IMG/VR virus record: IMGVR_UViG_3300025087_000206
Coordinates: 1 to 37,074 of that record
Source: a virus
DNA length: 37,074 bases
Reading direction: 5' to 3' (one strand)
A program made the translations under genes and the position numbers. Position 1 is the stretch's first letter. Each line of letters opens with the position of its first letter. A model generated the notes under the pieces. It did not search any database and was not told the origin of the DNA. It saw only the letters and a program-made list of their open reading frames with translations. Shown here in pieces: positions 691 through 16,883 of the stretch.

Positions 691-2345
691 GGGAGGGGAA
701 AAGCCCGGTGGGCGAGGCCGGGCCTTTCCAGGAGAAGAGGGGAGGTTGCCAGAAATTGGGAGGTTTCGGGCGGAAAAACGAGAGGATGTGAGAATTTATG
801 TCTATGGGTGGCGTCCCCGTGGGGGCACTGATCATAGGCATAAGGATCGTAGTACACGATCTCGCCTCGCAGGATGTCCTTGCTACCAACAGCAAGGACT
901 TTTGCTATTAATGAGGCGTAGATGGCGTGCAGCTCGTCGGGGGCGGCGTGTTTGATCAGATAGATGAGTTTGGCTGACATTTTGTTGATGTCAATAGCAG
1001 GGTCAAGCGCCGGGGGGTGGTCGATGATGCGTTGGAGGGTTTGGAGCTGCAGGGAGATCTCGGTGCGGCGGTCTTCCATTTTGGAGAGGGCAGCAAGCAT
1101 GGCGCTGGTGTGGCCTTTCTCGGCGATGGCGTTGACCAGGTTGGCTATCTTGTGATCCAGGGCAGCGATCTCCTGGGTGAGCTGGGCATGGACGGCGCGG
1201 TATTGGTCGGGGGCGGCGGTCTGGAGCTCGAGGATGCGCTGGTGGATTGAGGCGAGATTTTCAGGGATGAGGATGTATTCGATGAGGGTGTCGAGCACGC
1301 ACTGTTCGAGGAGCTGCTGGGGGATCATCTTGACGGTGCAGCCGGCATTTCGTTTGGCGTTGGAGCAGGCGTAATAGGTGTAGGTCTTTTTGGATTTGCG
1401 CGAGCTGATCACATGGCCATTGAGAGGGGCGCCGCATTCGTTGCAGTAAGCCAGTCCGGAGAGCACAAAGTTTTGGCCAGTACGGCGCGGGTGGGCCGGG
1501 TTGTCTGTTCCAGCGAGCGGAGATTGGCGGTTGGTGCGGTTCATTTGCTGTACTTTATTCCATGCCTGCAGATCGATGATCGGGTCACAGTAGTTTTCGA
1601 GGGTCTTTCCTCCAAATTCGAGGATGCCGATATAGAGTTTATTACGGAAGAAAGTGGAATAGGAATTTTTGCTGCCGAATAGACGAGTTTCCTGGTTGAT
1701 GTGTTTGTAGGATGCACCAGCAGCGCGCATGTGCCAGGCTTTCTGGATGAGGGGGATGAGGTCAGGATCGGGAACCCAGCGGTGGACGATGTGACGGGTG
1801 CCATCACGGCGGGAGCCGAGATCGAGCTCCTGGCGGATGAAGCCGGTTGGCGGTGTGCCGCCTAAAGCGCCGTGCTGATCAGCGATGTAGTGCAGGCCGC
1901 GCTTGACCTCTTTGCGGAGTTCGACCAGGCGGCGGTTGTTGGCCCAGTCGATGGCGGCCTCAAAAAAGCGGCCATCCAGGCCAGCGGGAATGGGATCGGT
2001 GATGGAGTAGATCTCATAACCCTGGCGGCGCAGATCGGCTTTGAAGTATTGGGAGTCGTCGATGTCGCGGCTGAAGCGGGCGTAGGACCAGAGGATGATG
2101 CCGGTCTCCTGACAGTTGGGGGTTTGAAAGTGGCGCAGCATGTCGAAGAATGCTGTGCGCCCAATGGTGGTGCTCCCGGTGCGAGCTTCGTCAGTGTAGG
2201 CCTGGGCGAGGATGAAGCCATGGTCAGCGCACCAGGCCTGAATGTGGCTGAGCTGCTGGGGGATGGAGAGATCCTGATCATCCCCACCTGAATCACGCAG
2301 ATAAGCAACCAGGCGGGATCCTGCGGGAAATGGGAGTTCGGTCAT
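576..2345 (-). CDS. Large serine recombinase (phage integrase)
   Basis: This 589-aa protein is a large serine recombinase that would integrate and excise the phage at att sites. The N-terminal resolvase domain has the YLRDSG motif with S19 as likely nucleophile, and the arginine-rich YARFSRD helix. A recombinase domain follows, then a zinc ribbon (CNECG near residue 300, with paired Cys about 25 residues later) and a coiled-coil segment (about residues 380-440), the usual order for this family. The C-terminal 40-50 residues look low in complexity and are read from DNA that also encodes a terminator and the end of the metallophosphoesterase gene, so the tail may have been gained by loss of an earlier stop. 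It starts 4 bases after the small upstream gene with no clear ribosome site of its own, implying translational coupling. Confidence 0.93.
   Translation of the reverse strand: MTELPFPAGSRLVAYLRDSGGDDQDLSIPQQLSHIQAWCADHGFILAQAYTDEARTGSTTIGRTAFFDMLRHFQTPNCQETGIILWSYARFSRDIDDSQYFKADLRRQGYEIYSITDPIPAGLDGRFFEAAIDWANNRRLVELRKEVKRGLHYIADQHGALGGTPPTGFIRQELDLGSRRDGTRHIVHRWVPDPDLIPLIQKAWHMRAAGASYKHINQETRLFGSKNSYSTFFRNKLYIGILEFGGKTLENYCDPIIDLQAWNKVQQMNRTNRQSPLAGTDNPAHPRRTGQNFVLSGLAYCNECGAPLNGHVISSRKSKKTYTYYACSNAKRNAGCTVKMIPQQLLEQCVLDTLIEYILIPENLASIHQRILELQTAAPDQYRAVHAQLTQEIAALDHKIANLVNAIAEKGHTSAMLAALSKMEDRRTEISLQLQTLQRIIDHPPALDPAIDINKMSAKLIYLIKHAAPDELHAIYASLIAKVLAVGSKDILRGEIVYYDPYAYDQCPHGDATHRHKFSHPLVFPPETSQFLATSPLLLERPGLAHRAFPLPHPISTFSFLQSSIFRRLSCTSSAISSARSLASITCPA
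699..727. terminator. Bidirectional intrinsic terminator
   Basis: A 6-bp GC stem (GCCCGG at 703-708, CCGGGC at 718-723) has an A run on the left and a T run on the right. It lies 9 bases after the metallophosphoesterase stop and can end that transcript. On the minus strand the same hairpin falls inside the last part of the recombinase reading frame. Confidence 0.6.
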
Positions 2346-2679: not shown

Positions 2680-2748
2680 GTGGGCCCGCCAGGTGGTAAA
2701 GAGGCCTCCAAAACCAACTTTATGGGGTTCAATTCCCCACGGGTCCAC
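2680..2748 (+). tRNA. tRNA-like element, Trp(CCA)-like loop, reduced D-arm
   Basis: The acceptor stem is GGGCCCG/CGGGTCC (2682-2688 with 2740-2746, one G-U), extendable to 9 bp. The T-arm is a perfect TGGGG/CCCCA stem with loop TTCAATT, followed by A and CCG where mature tRNAs have discriminator and CCA. The middle is abnormal: only 34 bases, with a possible 2-bp D-arm (CC-AGGT-GG). The anticodon-like arm has stem TAAAG/CTTTA and loop CTCCAAA, with U33 and anticodon CCA in place, but its lower stem is interrupted. It is either a minimal or decayed phage tRNA, or a tRNA mimic. A possible -10 (TAGAAT, 2666-2671) would start transcription right at its 5' end. Transfer RNA function is uncertain. 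Confidence 0.5.
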
Positions 2749-2773
2749 CGGTCGGTTTAGAACGCCAGTCCTA

Positions 2774-2802
2774 TTGCATTACCAGTCTATTTGTGCTATG
2801 AT
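2774..2802 (+). promoter_or_regulatory. Promoter of predicted small RNA 1
   Basis: TTGCAT (2774-2779), 17-base spacer, TATGAT (2797-2802). It lies 26 bases after the tRNA-like element and points at the antisense small RNA. The -35 and the spacing are identical to those of the promoters at 16127 and 16683. Confidence 0.7.
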
Positions 2803-2808
2803 TTTTAT

Positions 2809-2906
2809 GGAGACCTCTTTACCAAGACTTGGTAAAGTTGGAATTGACAAACAAGCCCGCCTTGTCCCTGTCGGCCCCGCCCCTTTCCCAGGGGCGGTGT
2901 GCTTTT
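2809..2906 (+). ncRNA. Predicted small RNA 1, antisense to the tRNA-like element
   Basis: The expected start, 7 bases after the -10 box, begins GGAGACCTCTTTACCA (2809-2824). This is the reverse complement of 2694-2709 in the tRNA-like element, with 15 of 16 bases matching. Next comes a perfect 10-bp palindrome CTTTACCAAG/CTTGGTAAAG around 2827, then TAAAGTTGG (2833-2841), which is complementary to 2714-2722 of the same element. The RNA would end at a GC hairpin (2877-2897) and T run (2903-2906), giving about 98 nt. No credible protein is encoded. It is predicted from promoter, pairing and terminator only. Confidence 0.55.
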
Positions 2907-2927
2907 AAGGGGGCGGCAGGGACAAGG
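2860..2927. terminator. Nested inverted repeat, likely two-way terminator
   Basis: Outer arms CCTTGTCCCTG (2860-2870) and CAGGGACAAGG (2917-2927) are perfect and extend inward to about 17 of 19 pairs. They enclose an inner hairpin CCGCCCCT/AGGGGCGG (2877-2897) followed by CTTTT. It lies between convergent units: small RNA 1 on the plus strand and the lipoprotein gene on the minus strand. A close relative of the inner part recurs at 16758-16790. Confidence 0.6.
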
Positions 2928-2943
2928 AGACCATGCAGGATAG

Positions 2944-3564
2944 TTATGGGTTGAGCAGTTTTTCTAATTCTTTGGTGGCGTTATCCAAATATGTGTTTAT
3001 ATTGGTCAAATTTTCAATTGCTTTTGGGATATAGGTTGCATCGATCAGTTCGACGCTGGACCAATAATTTTCAACGAATTCCTGTGTCTCCGGATAAAGT
3101 AATTCAACCCAATTGTGAAAGGAATTGAATTTCTCGGGGACATTGGGGTAATTGGCCATTTCTTCGGTAATGGTGAGCAACTGATCAAATAAGGCTGCCA
3201 GGTCGAATTTCCATTGGGTGTCGAATATGATGGTTGGATCAGCTTCCGCCTGCCGGTTCATGGCTAAGAATTCTGTCATCAGGGTGCTAAATTCAGTGAG
3301 AAATTCCTGATAGGTGTTTTTGTAGAGTATCTCATCGTAGGTCAGGCCAGTTCTGGTCGGCGTTGGTGTCTTTGTTGGTTTTGGAGTGGGTGTGGAAGTG
3401 GGCATGGGTGTGGGGGTGTCTGTGGGGGGAAGAGGAGTGCTGGTAGGTTTTGCGGCTTCGGTGAGGACGATGGCGGTTTGGATCTGATCCTCTTTGGGGA
3501 CTGAACTGCAGGCAGATAGAAACACAATAACAGCCAGTATAAGCCAAATTGTTTTTTTCATCAT
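2944..3564 (-). CDS. Secreted lipoprotein with Pro/Thr linker
   Basis: This 206-aa protein has a lipoprotein signal (basic start, hydrophobic stretch, lipobox LSAC with Cys near residue 19). A Pro/Thr linker of about 35 residues (repeated TPTP, PTKTP units) is followed by a mostly helical domain of about 130 residues of no recognised family. It should be exported and anchored on the outer face of the membrane. The second ATG (3561) is better spaced from the GGAGG ribosome site than the first. It is transcribed from the prophage-repressor side on the minus strand, like lysogenic-conversion cargo, so a host-surface role (for example superinfection exclusion) is possible but unproven. Confidence 0.8.
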   Translation of the reverse strand: MMKKTIWLILAVIVFLSACSSVPKEDQIQTAIVLTEAAKPTSTPLPPTDTPTPMPTSTPTPKPTKTPTPTRTGLTYDEILYKNTYQEFLTEFSTLMTEFLAMNRQAEADPTIIFDTQWKFDLAALFDQLLTITEEMANYPNVPEKFNSFHNWVELLYPETQEFVENYWSSVELIDATYIPKAIENLTNINTYLDNATKELEKLLNP

Positions 3565-5585: not shown

Positions 5586-5998
5586 ATGACGCCATGACCG
5601 AGGTATTGAGCAAAGAGCAGGACCGGCGAACGCAGATCCGGCTGCGCATGATCGCAAGGCGCAGGCTGGAAGAAACCGTGAGCGACCTGATCCGCGAATG
5701 GCTGTGGCGCGACGTCAAGATCGGGCTGCCCGAAGACGCCAAAGTGCGGGCGATCGCCCAGCCGGTGGTGCACGGCGTCACCACCTTCGATGTCTGGGTG
5801 CACATGCGCTCAGACCAGCCAGCCTTCGGGGTGCGGCTGATGAACACGGTCACGCTGGAGAACGGCCAGGTGATCGTCAAAGGGAAACAACTGCTCTGGC
5901 GCGGCTTCATGGGCGCCGAGCACGCCGATTATGGCGAGGACTTTTGGGGAGCAGCGCTGTACTCGGTCGGGACTAAGAGAAAGGCAGGGGAGCGGTGA
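5573..5998 (+). CDS. Unknown early protein, 141 aa
   Basis: The start at 5573 (MGTMNDAMTEVL) has GGGAG 8 bases upstream. The N-terminal half is helical and Arg-rich (RRTQIRLRMIARRRLEE). The C-terminal half looks like a beta-sandwich (TTFDVWVHMRSDQPAFGVRL, TLENGQVIVKGKQLLWRGF). No family is recognised. It overlaps the upstream gene by 13 bases and its stop overlaps a GTG start downstream. Confidence 0.65.
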   Translation: MGTMNDAMTEVLSKEQDRRTQIRLRMIARRRLEETVSDLIREWLWRDVKIGLPEDAKVRAIAQPVVHGVTTFDVWVHMRSDQPAFGVRLMNTVTLENGQVIVKGKQLLWRGFMGAEHADYGEDFWGAALYSVGTKRKAGER

Positions 5999-6108
5999 GC
6001 CGCTGGATTGCCAGGGGTTTGAGGCGATTTATGGCGGAAGCGATCCTGGTGGGCAGCCTGGGCCTGGGGATCGGTATCCTGATCGGAATTTTATTGGCAT
6101 TTGCCTAA
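5995..6108 (+). CDS. Very small membrane protein, 37 aa
   Basis: GTG start overlapping the upstream TGA (GTGA). A basic N-terminus (MSRWIARGLRRF) is followed by a single Gly/Ile/Leu-rich transmembrane helix (EAILVGSLGLGIGILIGILL). It fits the coupled layout of the operon. A GGGGAG site lies very close to the start. Short, so coding status is moderate. Confidence 0.5.
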   Translation: MSRWIARGLRRFMAEAILVGSLGLGIGILIGILLAFA

Positions 6109-6125
6109 AAAAAAAGGAGATAGAC

Positions 6126-7046
6126 ATGACCTGGTTAGAAGAATTCGAGATCTGGCTGGAAAGCCAGACGATGAGCACACACACGATCAAGAGCTATGTG
6201 GGGGATCTGAGGCAGTTCTCGGACTGGATGGGTAAGCGGCAAGGGGAGGACTTCGAGGCCGGAAAGCTGACCGCGGTGGATGTGAGAGCCTATCAGAAGG
6301 CGCTGCAGGGAATGAAACGGCACCCGGCAACGGTGAACCGCAAGATCAACGCCCTGCGCACCTTCGCACGCTTCGCTTCTGGAAAGTACACCGGGGGCAG
6401 CATCCAGGAAGAGATCAGCGGGCTGGTAAAGAAGATCGAAGAGCCGGCGCCGATGCCCAGGGCGATCAGCAAGCAGGATAGCAGCCGATTACTGGCAGCC
6501 TACGAGCGCGAGATCAGCCACGAGCAGTTGAAGGGCAGGACCGGGCGCTATCGCCAGGCGGTGATGCAGCGGGCGATCCTGTACCTGCAAAGGGGCGGGG
6601 GATTGCGCACCGGCGAAGCGGTGGCGCTGGATGCTGGGGATGTGGTCCTCAAAGAACGGTCTGGATATGTGATCGTGCGCCAGGGCAAGGGCGGGAAATA
6701 CGCCGAACAGCCGCTGCCGGCCGAGACGCGCTATTACCTGGCGGAGTGGATCAGGATCAGAGGCAGCCAGCCCGGGGCGCTGTTCACCAGCCAGAAGGGT
6801 GGCAGGCTGGGCGCCAGGCAGGTGCAGCGGTATTTCGCCGCGATGTGTGAGCGCGCTGGCCTGAAAGGGACGTACACGCCGCACAGCAACCGGCACACCT
6901 TTATTCGCACGCTGGTGGCGGATCCCAACGTGCCGCTGCCGGAAGCCCAGAAGCTGGCCCGGCATGCACGCGTGGAGATGACCCTGCGCTATGCGATGGC
7001 CACCGAAGAAGATCTACAGGCCGCGGTCGAGCGGGTGTTCTCGTAA
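6126..7046 (+). CDS. Tyrosine recombinase, XerC/D-like
   Basis: This 306-aa protein carries an N-terminal SAM-like core-binding domain (about residues 1-85, SQTMSTHTIKSYVGDLRQF) and a C-terminal catalytic domain. The catalytic set is complete: Arg in GLRTGEAVAL, Lys in VRQGKGGKYAEQ, HSNRHTF for H-x-x-R, and LARHARVEMTLRYA with the Tyr nucleophile. It starts at 6126 behind AGGAG (6116-6120). It is the second site-specific recombinase of the genome. Family members integrate DNA, resolve dimers or invert segments; lying in the early replication block rather than beside an att-like site, it could resolve multimers or flip the inverted repeats noted at 2694/2824 and 16615/16731. The substrate is unproven. 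Confidence 0.92.
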   Translation: MTWLEEFEIWLESQTMSTHTIKSYVGDLRQFSDWMGKRQGEDFEAGKLTAVDVRAYQKALQGMKRHPATVNRKINALRTFARFASGKYTGGSIQEEISGLVKKIEEPAPMPRAISKQDSSRLLAAYEREISHEQLKGRTGRYRQAVMQRAILYLQRGGGLRTGEAVALDAGDVVLKERSGYVIVRQGKGGKYAEQPLPAETRYYLAEWIRIRGSQPGALFTSQKGGRLGARQVQRYFAAMCERAGLKGTYTPHSNRHTFIRTLVADPNVPLPEAQKLARHARVEMTLRYAMATEEDLQAAVERVFS

Positions 7047-12244: not shown

Positions 12245-12766
12245 ACAAAAAGGAGATTTTTGCCCGAGTGAATGTCGGTGAACCTTGTTTTTTAGCTGCT
12301 CCTAAATTTGGGGAGGGGGTGCGGGGGAGGAAAAAAATGTCGTTTTATGGCACAGCAGGCCCAAATTCCAGTGTTTTAAGGGTTTTTAAGGGTTTTAGTG
12401 AATGACGGTTGACTTTAAAAGGCTCAAAAGAGGTAGATCAAAAATGTTTTGTCTGCGAGGCAAACGACATAACAAATTTCAATATGCCCAAAAAGGCGTT
12501 TTGAGCTTCACCGACATTCACTATTTTCTAGCTAGTGACGGATTTCACAATCTTTTGGTTAAAAATGTCGTTTTGCGGGCAAAAATGGTGAAAGAGTTGA
12601 TGTCAGTGAACTATGTATACGAGATTTAAGAAAAAAAAGATGCTATGGAGCCTATTGGAACTTAAATTAGTGAATGATGGAGATCGAGTTTAAGAACTTT
12701 TTAAAAACAATCCGCCACCGACATTCACTACAGCTAAAGATATTGCACAGATAAAGGAGACAAACG
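12245..12766. other. Probable replication origin region with iterons
   Basis: A 522-base non-coding, locally AT-rich stretch after the primase gene. The 14-mer AGTGAATGTCGGTG occurs at 12267-12280 and, inverted and exact, at 12509-12522 and 12716-12729. Diverged copies lie at 12397-12410 and 12669-12680. A second repeat, AAAAATGTCGTTTT, occurs at 12333-12346 and 12561-12574, with ATGTCGTTT inverted at 12462-12470. TTTTAAGGG-type units repeat at about 12373-12396. Repeated protein sites next to replication genes and AT-rich DNA fit an origin; the initiator is unknown. Confidence 0.65.
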
Positions 12767-16097: not shown

Positions 16098-16124
16098 GGG
16101 CGCATTGCAATGCGCCCCTACGGG
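16098..16124 (+). repeat. Palindromic repeat, left copy bounding the tRNA cassette
   Basis: The 27-mer starting GGGCGCATTGCAATGCGCCC (a perfect 20-base palindrome) and ending CTACGGG is identical to 16851-16877 in the same orientation. The two copies bracket the leader RNA, 56-aa gene, tRNA and small RNA. The form is that of host intergenic repeats. Confidence 0.85.
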
Positions 16125-16126
16125 GA

Positions 16127-16159: not shown

Positions 16160-16251
16160 GTGCGACCAAAGAAGATAACTCAGAACATTTCTTTTAACCG
16201 GTAGAGTTCCCTCTATCACGTACCTAAATGGTCTGAGTTCTTTGGTCGCAC
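16160..16251 (+). ncRNA. Long structured leader RNA
   Basis: Perfect 13-bp outer arms (GTGCGACCAAAGA at 16160-16172 with 16239-16251), a 5-base bulge, a second 7-bp helix (ACTCAGA/TCTGAGT), a 1x1 mismatch and CATTT/AAATG form one continuous stem. The apical loop holds another hairpin (GGTAGAG/CTCTATC, 16200-16206 with 16211-16217). There is no T run after it, so it is not a simple terminator. It would form the 5' leader of the 56-aa gene and tRNA transcript. Function unknown. Confidence 0.6.
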
Positions 16252-16589: not shown

Positions 16590-16663
16590 GCCCCCGTCGT
16601 CCAATGGAAAGGACACTAACTTCGCAAGTTAGAACCATCCCAGTACGAATCTGGGCGGGGGCG
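16590..16663 (+). tRNA. tRNA-Ala (anticodon CGC), atypical
   Basis: A full cloverleaf: acceptor GCCCCCG/CGGGGGC, D-stem GTCC/GGAC, anticodon stem CTAAC/GTTAG with loop TTCGCAA (U33 present, anticodon CGC at 16623-16625), T-stem CCCAG/CTGGG. CCA is not encoded; the next base is G. By the code it reads GCG (Ala). Two features are unusual: the third acceptor pair is C-G rather than the G-U that marks most tRNA-Ala, and the T loop is TACGAAT, with A where U55 is normally invariant. GCG codons are common in this phage. The body also resembles arginine tRNAs, so charging identity is open. Confidence 0.85.
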
Positions 16664-16682
16664 TCGTTGAGGAATTGAGGTA

Positions 16683-16711
16683 TTGCATAAAAATACATTT
16701 AACCTTATAAT
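16683..16711 (+). promoter_or_regulatory. Promoter of predicted small RNA 2
   Basis: TTGCAT (16683-16688), 17-base spacer, TATAAT (16706-16711), in AT-rich DNA 20 bases after the tRNA. It is the strongest member of the TTGCAT group and points at the sequence antisense to the tRNA anticodon arm. Confidence 0.8.
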
Positions 16712-16717
16712 AAGGGC

Positions 16718-16789
16718 ACTTGCGAAGTTAGTCAGATAAGAACTGACGATCCCGGCCCCGCCCCTGCCCCCCAGGGGCGGCGCCCTTTT
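16718..16789 (+). ncRNA. Predicted small RNA 2, antisense to the tRNA anticodon arm
   Basis: The expected 5' end, 7 bases after the -10 box, begins with ACTTGCGAAGTTAGT (16717-16731 includes the first base). This is the exact reverse complement of tRNA bases 16615-16629, which cover the anticodon loop and most of its stem. A hairpin GTCAG-ATAAGAA-CTGAC follows, then a GC hairpin CCGCCCCT/AGGGGCGG (16758-16780) and CTTTT, giving about 72 nt. The 3' hairpin is nearly the same as in small RNA 1. There is no coding frame. Predicted from sequence only. Confidence 0.6.
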
Positions 16790-16802
16790 AAGGGAGACAA
16801 GC

Positions 16803-16841: not shown

Positions 16842-16870
16842 AAAAAAAGAGGGCGCATTGCAATGCGCCC
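16842..16870 (-). terminator. Terminator of the minus-strand pair 17561-16884
   Basis: Read on the minus strand, the palindrome GGGCGCATTGCAATGCGCCC (16870-16851) is followed by TCTTTTTTTG. It lies 14 bases after the stop of the minus-strand gene ending at 16884 and is a standard intrinsic terminator. Confidence 0.8.
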
Positions 16871-16877
16871 CTACGGG
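16851..16877 (+). repeat. Palindromic repeat, right copy bounding the tRNA cassette
   Basis: Identical to 16098-16124 over 27 bases and in the same orientation. Here it also works as the hairpin of a minus-strand terminator. Confidence 0.85.
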
Positions 16878-16883
16878 AGTAGA

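Follow-up and report, generated by a model that had tools for sequence, protein, structure and literature searches.

The stretch of DNA analysed here, hereafter the window, comprises positions 1 to 37,074 of the 37,074-nt IMG/VR virus record IMGVR_UViG_3300025087_000206 and, like all sequences considered in this study, is metagenomic or MAG-derived. It represents a tailed phage encoding a terminase, a portal protein, a major capsid protein and an endolysin. Genes for both a serine integrase (780-2345, minus strand) and a tyrosine integrase (5931-7046) are present, together with a ParB-like gene. Relatives of the serine integrase occur in genomes of Anaerolineae (Chloroflexota) and in metagenomic phages, and a bacterium of this class is therefore the likely host; a query of viral contigs with the terminase returned no match.

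At 2643-2927 lies a compact element on the plus strand, termed module B (winB), in which a tRNA-like sequence is followed by the predicted coding sequence of a small RNA (sRNA). A putative promoter, P1 (TGGTAA-N17-TAGAAT, 2643-2671; 8 of 12 consensus positions), precedes the tRNA-like RNA (2680-2748), whose acceptor stem (GGGCCCG, 2682-2688; CGGGTCC, 2740-2746) includes G3:U70 and is followed by A73 (2747). The D region is reduced to 12 nt without a D stem; the anticodon CCA (2708-2710), corresponding to Trp, is presented in a 7-nt loop, CTCCAAA, having U33 and a purine at position 37; and the T arm occupies 2723-2739. The label "tRNA-like" in the original prediction required amendment, in that neither ARAGORN nor Rfam reports a tRNA at 2680-2748 and a proper D arm is lacking. 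Module B thus fails two criteria of a canonical tRNA, a cloverleaf recognized by tRNA finders and an identity matching the anticodon (G3:U70 and A73 against CCA).

A second promoter, P2 (TTGCAT-N17-TATGAT, 2774-2802), ends 5 nt before the first pairing segment of the sRNA (2808-2824), which begins at the predicted transcription start and opposes 2694-2710, a target made up of the anticodon arm's 5' side and the loop up to and including the anticodon. The original prediction had described 2694-2709 (TGGTAAAGAGGCCTCC) and 2809-2824 (GGAGACCTCTTTACCA) as inverse copies matching at 15 of 16 bases, the second placed just after this promoter; both claims held, and the match proved larger, extending over 17 nt with one mismatch and, further, to 18 of 20. 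Also upheld was the claim that 2833-2841 pairs with 2714-2722, on the variable-region side of the tRNA-like RNA, the two being exact reverse complements. The description as antisense was amended, since the sRNA presents its anticodon-side segment first and its variable-side segment second and is not a plain collinear antisense. A conserved 3' scaffold follows (2844-2907), comprising a short stem (TTGACA..TGTCGG), a terminator-like hairpin (CCGCCCC, 2877-2883; GGGGCGG, 2891-2897) and then TGTGCTTTTAA; a larger inverted repeat with 19-nt arms (2860-2878 and 2909-2927) encloses the hairpin. The next ORF (2944-3564) lies on the opposite strand. A 76-aa ORF traversing module B (2678-2908) was treated as fortuitous because the sRNA of a related module, L051B, contains an early in-frame stop, as judged by inspection.

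A sister element on the same strand, module A (winA), contains a tRNA called by ARAGORN (16590-16662, anticodon CGC), a promoter TTGCAT-N17-TATAAT (16682-16710) and an sRNA that includes the terminator hairpin (16718-16790). Its positions 16718-16732 perfectly complement the anticodon arm (16615-16629) over 15 nt. As had been claimed, the two modules share a CCGCCCC/GGGGCGG hairpin, the similarity amounting to 83% over 42 nt. Inverted pairs scoring at least 12 within 300 nt number only five in the whole 37-kb window, modules A and B accounting for two. A match as good as that observed arose in 1 of 5000 shuffles of the sRNA 5' end for B and in none of 5000 for A; the 9-nt second segment of B was reached by 171 of 5000 shuffles and is not significant alone, its support coming from the cross-locus comparison described below. 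Just upstream of module A we observed an inverted repeat of about 92 nt (16160-16251) with perfect 14-nt ends, GTGCGACCAAAGAA..TTCTTTGGTCGCAC, which may be a MITE or some other structured RNA. Direct repeats GGGCGCATTGCAATGCGCCCCTACGGG at 16098-16125 and 16852-16878 bracket the module A region, and it is conceivable that the module travelled as a cassette.

Searches by several routes brought the inventory to 17 modules in Anaerolineae phages and prophages, all with the order promoter, tRNA-like sequence, promoter, antisense sRNA, terminator. Relatives of the integrase led to L023 (two modules), L035, L046 and L051. A terminator pattern, applied without regard to complementarity, matched eight viral stretches, including L060 (the B module of L023) and three with new modules (L056, L057 and L059), as well as the variant L055; the remaining matches, L053, L054 and L058, contained no module. 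Two relaxed versions of the pattern disclosed no new module, so short terminator motifs cannot by themselves identify a module; since 395 other genomes of the class lacked the terminator pattern, it is not a generic host terminator. A tRNA scan of two MAGs located a module adjoining a host tRNA-Arg gene (L110). A covariance model, R1, was built on the sRNA 3' scaffold only (module B, itself included in the model, scores 68.3 bits, E=1.6e-13). Interrogation of 400 genomes of the order with R1 gave eleven matches: two known, six new (E <= 1.2e-6) and three weaker. Each of the six new strong matches (L164-L169) proved to lie downstream of a tRNA-like sequence, with a promoter present and with complementarity between the anticodon arm and the sRNA 5' end; the weaker matches (L170-L172) lacked this combination. 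At the L170 tail (G385 C130), a weaker scaffold match without a recognisable tRNA-like sequence, a TGTAATA/TATTACA match was seen upstream. Only 6 of 147 genomes of the family contained an R1 match, a sporadic occurrence as expected of prophage cargo. Searches with an Arg-like body DNA pattern matched only two phages already known, and blastn in phages returned nothing. In all, complementarity played no part in the discovery of ten modules, which came from the terminator pattern, the covariance model or the tRNA scan. The inventory excludes L053, L054, L055, L058 and L170-L172. Because R1 covers one scaffold type, modules with other terminators (such as L023A, L035A and L046A) are undercounted.

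Pairing is specific to each module. The 5' segment scores 10-16 against its own tRNA in the 17 modules, versus an off-pair mean of 4.9, and no permutation out of 50,000 attained the observed sum. The ten modules discovered independently of complementarity gave 10-16 against an off-pair mean of 5.0 and maximum of 9, again with none of 50,000 permutations reaching the observed value. The later segment likewise exceeds chance (0/50,000 permutations for all 17 and 9/50,000 for the unselected ten), while being absent or weak in winA, L165, L166 and L169, among others. These permutation tests carry no correction for phylogeny or relatedness. When cofolded, the cognate sRNA ranks first for 15 of 17 tRNAs, and the best partner of the module B tRNA-like RNA among the 17 sRNAs is its own. 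The closest pair of modules, winB and L166, differ at four tRNA positions within the paired segment; the L166 sRNA fits its own tRNA perfectly, and winB retains one A:C mismatch. The whole anticodon falls within the paired segment in 15 of 17 modules and is missed by one base in L056 and L167. Host tRNAs were considered as the sRNA target and rejected, as matches to host tRNAs having the same anticodon (from two MAGs only) reach just 4-8, the level expected by chance; when host tRNAs of every kind are considered, the top match mostly falls at 7-10. The original prediction would have been refuted had relatives keeping both elements lost complementarity; the opposite was seen, the 17 modules retaining it despite largely unrelated sequences. 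The predicted functional two-RNA architecture with a changing target is to this extent supported by comparison, with expression only inferred. A variant locus, L055 (1560-1790), is syntenic with the L059 module and has an 89-nt hairpin in place of the tRNA-like sequence; this hairpin is still complementary to the sRNA over 12 nt, and the sRNA contains GTAACTC twice.

The anatomy of the sRNAs is similarly recurrent. An initial stretch of 10-17 nt is complementary to the 5' strand of the anticodon stem and to the loop as far as the anticodon; this complementarity opens at, or a few nt from, a transcription start known only by prediction. An anti-D segment, TTGAGCTA, pairs with the D arm in L056, L059 and L165, and L169 has a variant of it with one G.U; another segment pairs with the 5' side of the variable region and T stem in most copies. 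Beyond the pairing segments most copies have a short stem and then the near-invariant terminator hairpin. We place little weight on the scaffold stem, because its covariation is modest (one pair changed on both sides). A promoter-like site ends 6-16 nt before the tRNA-like sequence in all 17 modules, and P2 is near consensus in modules other than B as well. Both promoters are close to the consensus, scores of 8 and 9 of 12 being met by about 4% and 0.8% of random positions, respectively. By a crude count P2 scores above P1 in only 11 of 17 modules, P1 also being a good promoter.

The tRNA halves take two forms, one with a near-complete body and one with a reduced or odd D region. Bodies of the near-complete form are nearest to host tRNA-Arg or tRNA-Glu, with mixed anticodons (GCU in three, ACU, GCA, CGC, GUC and CAC). 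In the D-reduced form, which includes module B, the G3:U70 and A73 of alanine identity are present in eight of nine, accompanied by anticodons (CCA in four, UCC, UCG, CCU and UCU) that correspond to Trp, Gly or Arg codons; the exception, L051B, has anticodon CCC and a Trp-like acceptor without G3:U70. No alanine anticodon occurs among the nine. In 86 host tRNAs, G3:U70 was found in tRNA-Ala and in one tRNA-Gln reading. This base pair is sufficient for charging by AlaRS (PMC11415595), and the D-reduced forms should therefore be alanylated whatever their anticodon, although charging is here inferred. If such RNAs enter the ribosome, their sequences imply that they would place Ala at Trp, Gly or Arg codons; it remains possible that they are nonfunctional on the ribosome. 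U33 is retained in 16 of 17 loops, the exception being one Arg/Glu-bodied tRNA, and a purine at 37 in 13 of 17, as expected of decoding loops and unneeded by a mere tag or sponge.

Seven of the 17 modules adjoin an integrase or recombinase gene; other neighbours include lysis genes, capsid genes and an N6/N4 DNA methylase. No protein gene is common to all neighbourhoods compared, the recurrent integrases and N6/N4 methylase not being universal. Control in cis of downstream genes was considered and judged unlikely because those genes are mostly convergent. Possession of their own promoters and terminators in varied phage neighbourhoods fits autonomous morons, which is likely what the modules represent.

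Sequence comparison thus shows the module architecture, the cognate pairing and its coverage of the anticodon. That these constitute a functional two-RNA module is strongly supported, expression being inferred. How such a module might act is more conjectural. We propose that each RNA has its own promoter: the first yields a small tRNA or tRNA-like RNA and the second, downstream on the same strand, an sRNA roughly 100 nt long that on binding would cover the anticodon and should disrupt the folding of the tRNA. The D-reduced tRNA would combine an alanine acceptor identity with an anticodon reading Trp, Gly or Arg codons; the prophage would hold this harmful tRNA silent by a constant supply of antisense RNA, and cessation of that supply, through prophage loss or transcriptional shut-off, would leave the tRNA active. 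In the window phage UGG is used 115 times in 5270 codons, and an Ala tRNA reading UGG should therefore be harmful, toxicity being inferred. A misdecoding tRNA silenced by a dedicated antisense RNA would amount to an RNA-only addiction or abortive cassette. This is our preferred reading, with chances of being right or wrong that we judge much the same, expression, aminoacylation, toxicity and antidote action all being inferred; the argument from alanine identity is moreover limited to the D-reduced form. Further points against it are the mixed anticodons of the Arg/Glu-bodied form, the possible inactivity of D-reduced tRNAs on the ribosome, the lead of P2 over P1 in only 11 of 17 modules and the non-tRNA partner in L055. 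Bolder, and in our estimate rather more apt to be wrong than right, is the proposal of a new RNA-only toxin-antitoxin class, in which the toxin would be a misdecoding tRNA (here of Ala identity at the Trp codon UGG), the antitoxin an anticodon-masking antisense RNA, and co-evolving private pairs would spare host tRNAs; toxicity and charging are again inferred.

Other explanations cannot all be dismissed. The tRNA might be useful to the phage, as a decoy or replacement countering host anticodon nucleases, with the sRNA setting its dose or timing and keeping it inert in the lysogen. Phage tRNAs are known to counter tRNA-cleaving defences (PMC11555353), most loops retain U33 and A37, and some bodies are near complete (L056, L059); however, the anticodon arms are unlike those of host tRNAs with the same anticodon, most D-reduced forms couple Ala identity with other anticodons, and winA, L023A and others also lack a matching identity. 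We regard this explanation as unlikely without excluding it. The same judgement applies to the possibility that the sRNA is an effector acting on another target, perhaps with a protein bound to its 3' scaffold, and that the tRNA-like RNA sequesters or neutralises it. The conserved, near-invariant scaffold, the good P2 and the persistence of complementarity with a non-tRNA-like partner in L055 would accord with it, but no other target is evident (host tRNA matches being as low as noted above), the paired sequence varies freely with the tRNA, and the partner stays a tRNA with U33 nearly throughout, beyond the needs of a sponge.

Less probable still is a two-RNA guide or assembly for an unknown protein, in the style of crRNA and tracrRNA; a guide-like 5' segment joined to a constant 3' scaffold invites the comparison, whereas the neighbourhoods compared share no protein gene, and we consider it very unlikely, though not excluded. 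Least probable is that the inverted copies, without any RNA function, were left behind by recombination or as attachment sites of tRNA-targeting integrases. The integrase or recombinase genes beside seven modules and the host tRNA-Arg gene beside one speak for such an origin. Against it, the inverted copy begins just after a promoter and is followed in most copies by the shared terminator scaffold, it covaries with the tRNA, winA, L168 and L057 sit away from integrases, and attachment-site copies would be expected to be direct rather than inverted.

Among known systems, the addiction reading most resembles the RNA-RNA (type VIII) toxin-antitoxin CreTA, likewise a small RNA-only addiction pair working through tRNA biology, the addiction role of our modules being inferred. 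CreT sequesters a host tRNA by means of rare codons, and CreA represses CreT through CRISPR-Cas (PMC8501985), whereas the suspected toxin of the module is itself a tRNA with which the suspected antidote pairs directly. A CRISPR-repeat guide acting with Cas is not indicated, as the sRNA pairs directly with the tRNA, the window gave no Rfam match and the proteins scanned included no Cas family; as to the type VIII criterion of two RNAs, one targeting the other, no conserved coding sequence was seen and cognate pairing is supported by comparison, toxin and antitoxin roles remaining inferred. Mistranslating tRNAs of hybrid identity, such as Streptomyces tRNA-ProX and G3:U70 variants, share the disagreement between body identity and anticodon, G3:U70 bringing Ala to other codons (PMC11415595); that review mentions neither phage nor antisense RNA, whereas the module forms are often D-arm-reduced and each has an antisense partner. 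The pseudo-tRNA tRNA-Other of Bacillus cereus is also an unusual tRNA with a Trp anticodon and flanks a genomic island (PMC3399842), but it is reported to act outside translation, and the relevant passages describe no antisense sRNA. Phage tRNAs evading anticodon nucleases are phage-encoded, some with altered anticodon loops, but no antisense partner is mentioned (PMC11555353). T-box riboswitches show a similar order of contact, with the anticodon of a tRNA first and a more 3' part second. The module differs in the extent of contact (10-17 nt), in being a free-standing RNA with its own terminator and in having mostly convergent downstream genes; the window contains no Rfam match to suggest a T-box, and the ORF following module B is on the opposite strand. 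Nor is module B a tmRNA by ARAGORN or Rfam, only the Ala-type acceptor being in common.

No case of a tRNA gene coupled to an antisense RNA directed against it emerged from the open-access literature searched; absence elsewhere is unproven. Within these bounds, pairing retained in 17 copies of differing sequence suggests an RNA switch not described before. Should the proposed mechanism hold, rogue tRNAs would serve phages as weapons or for addiction, and a short complementary RNA would be the antidote; the module would offer a compact on/off switch for a chosen tRNA and a natural instance of controlled mistranslation, and it would account for some of the odd tRNAs without a D arm that mobile elements carry and tRNA finders overlook. 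Should the toxin reading be wrong, a conserved anticodon-masking sRNA would still be a new kind of riboregulator.

Several minor features were recorded in passing. N6/N4 DNA methylase-type genes stand beside the module or its variant in L178 (6580-8136), L176 (10245-11783), L055 (2008-3693) and L059 (5895-7505); that of L178 also has an Mrr-like domain (Pfam), and the other three were assigned by similarity or inspection. A PIN-domain-like ORF, VapC-like by eye, occurs near the module in L057 (1721-2218). The strongest inverted pair of its kind in the window is a perfect 16-nt repeat, 12267-12282 and 12507-12522, its arms 224 nt apart.
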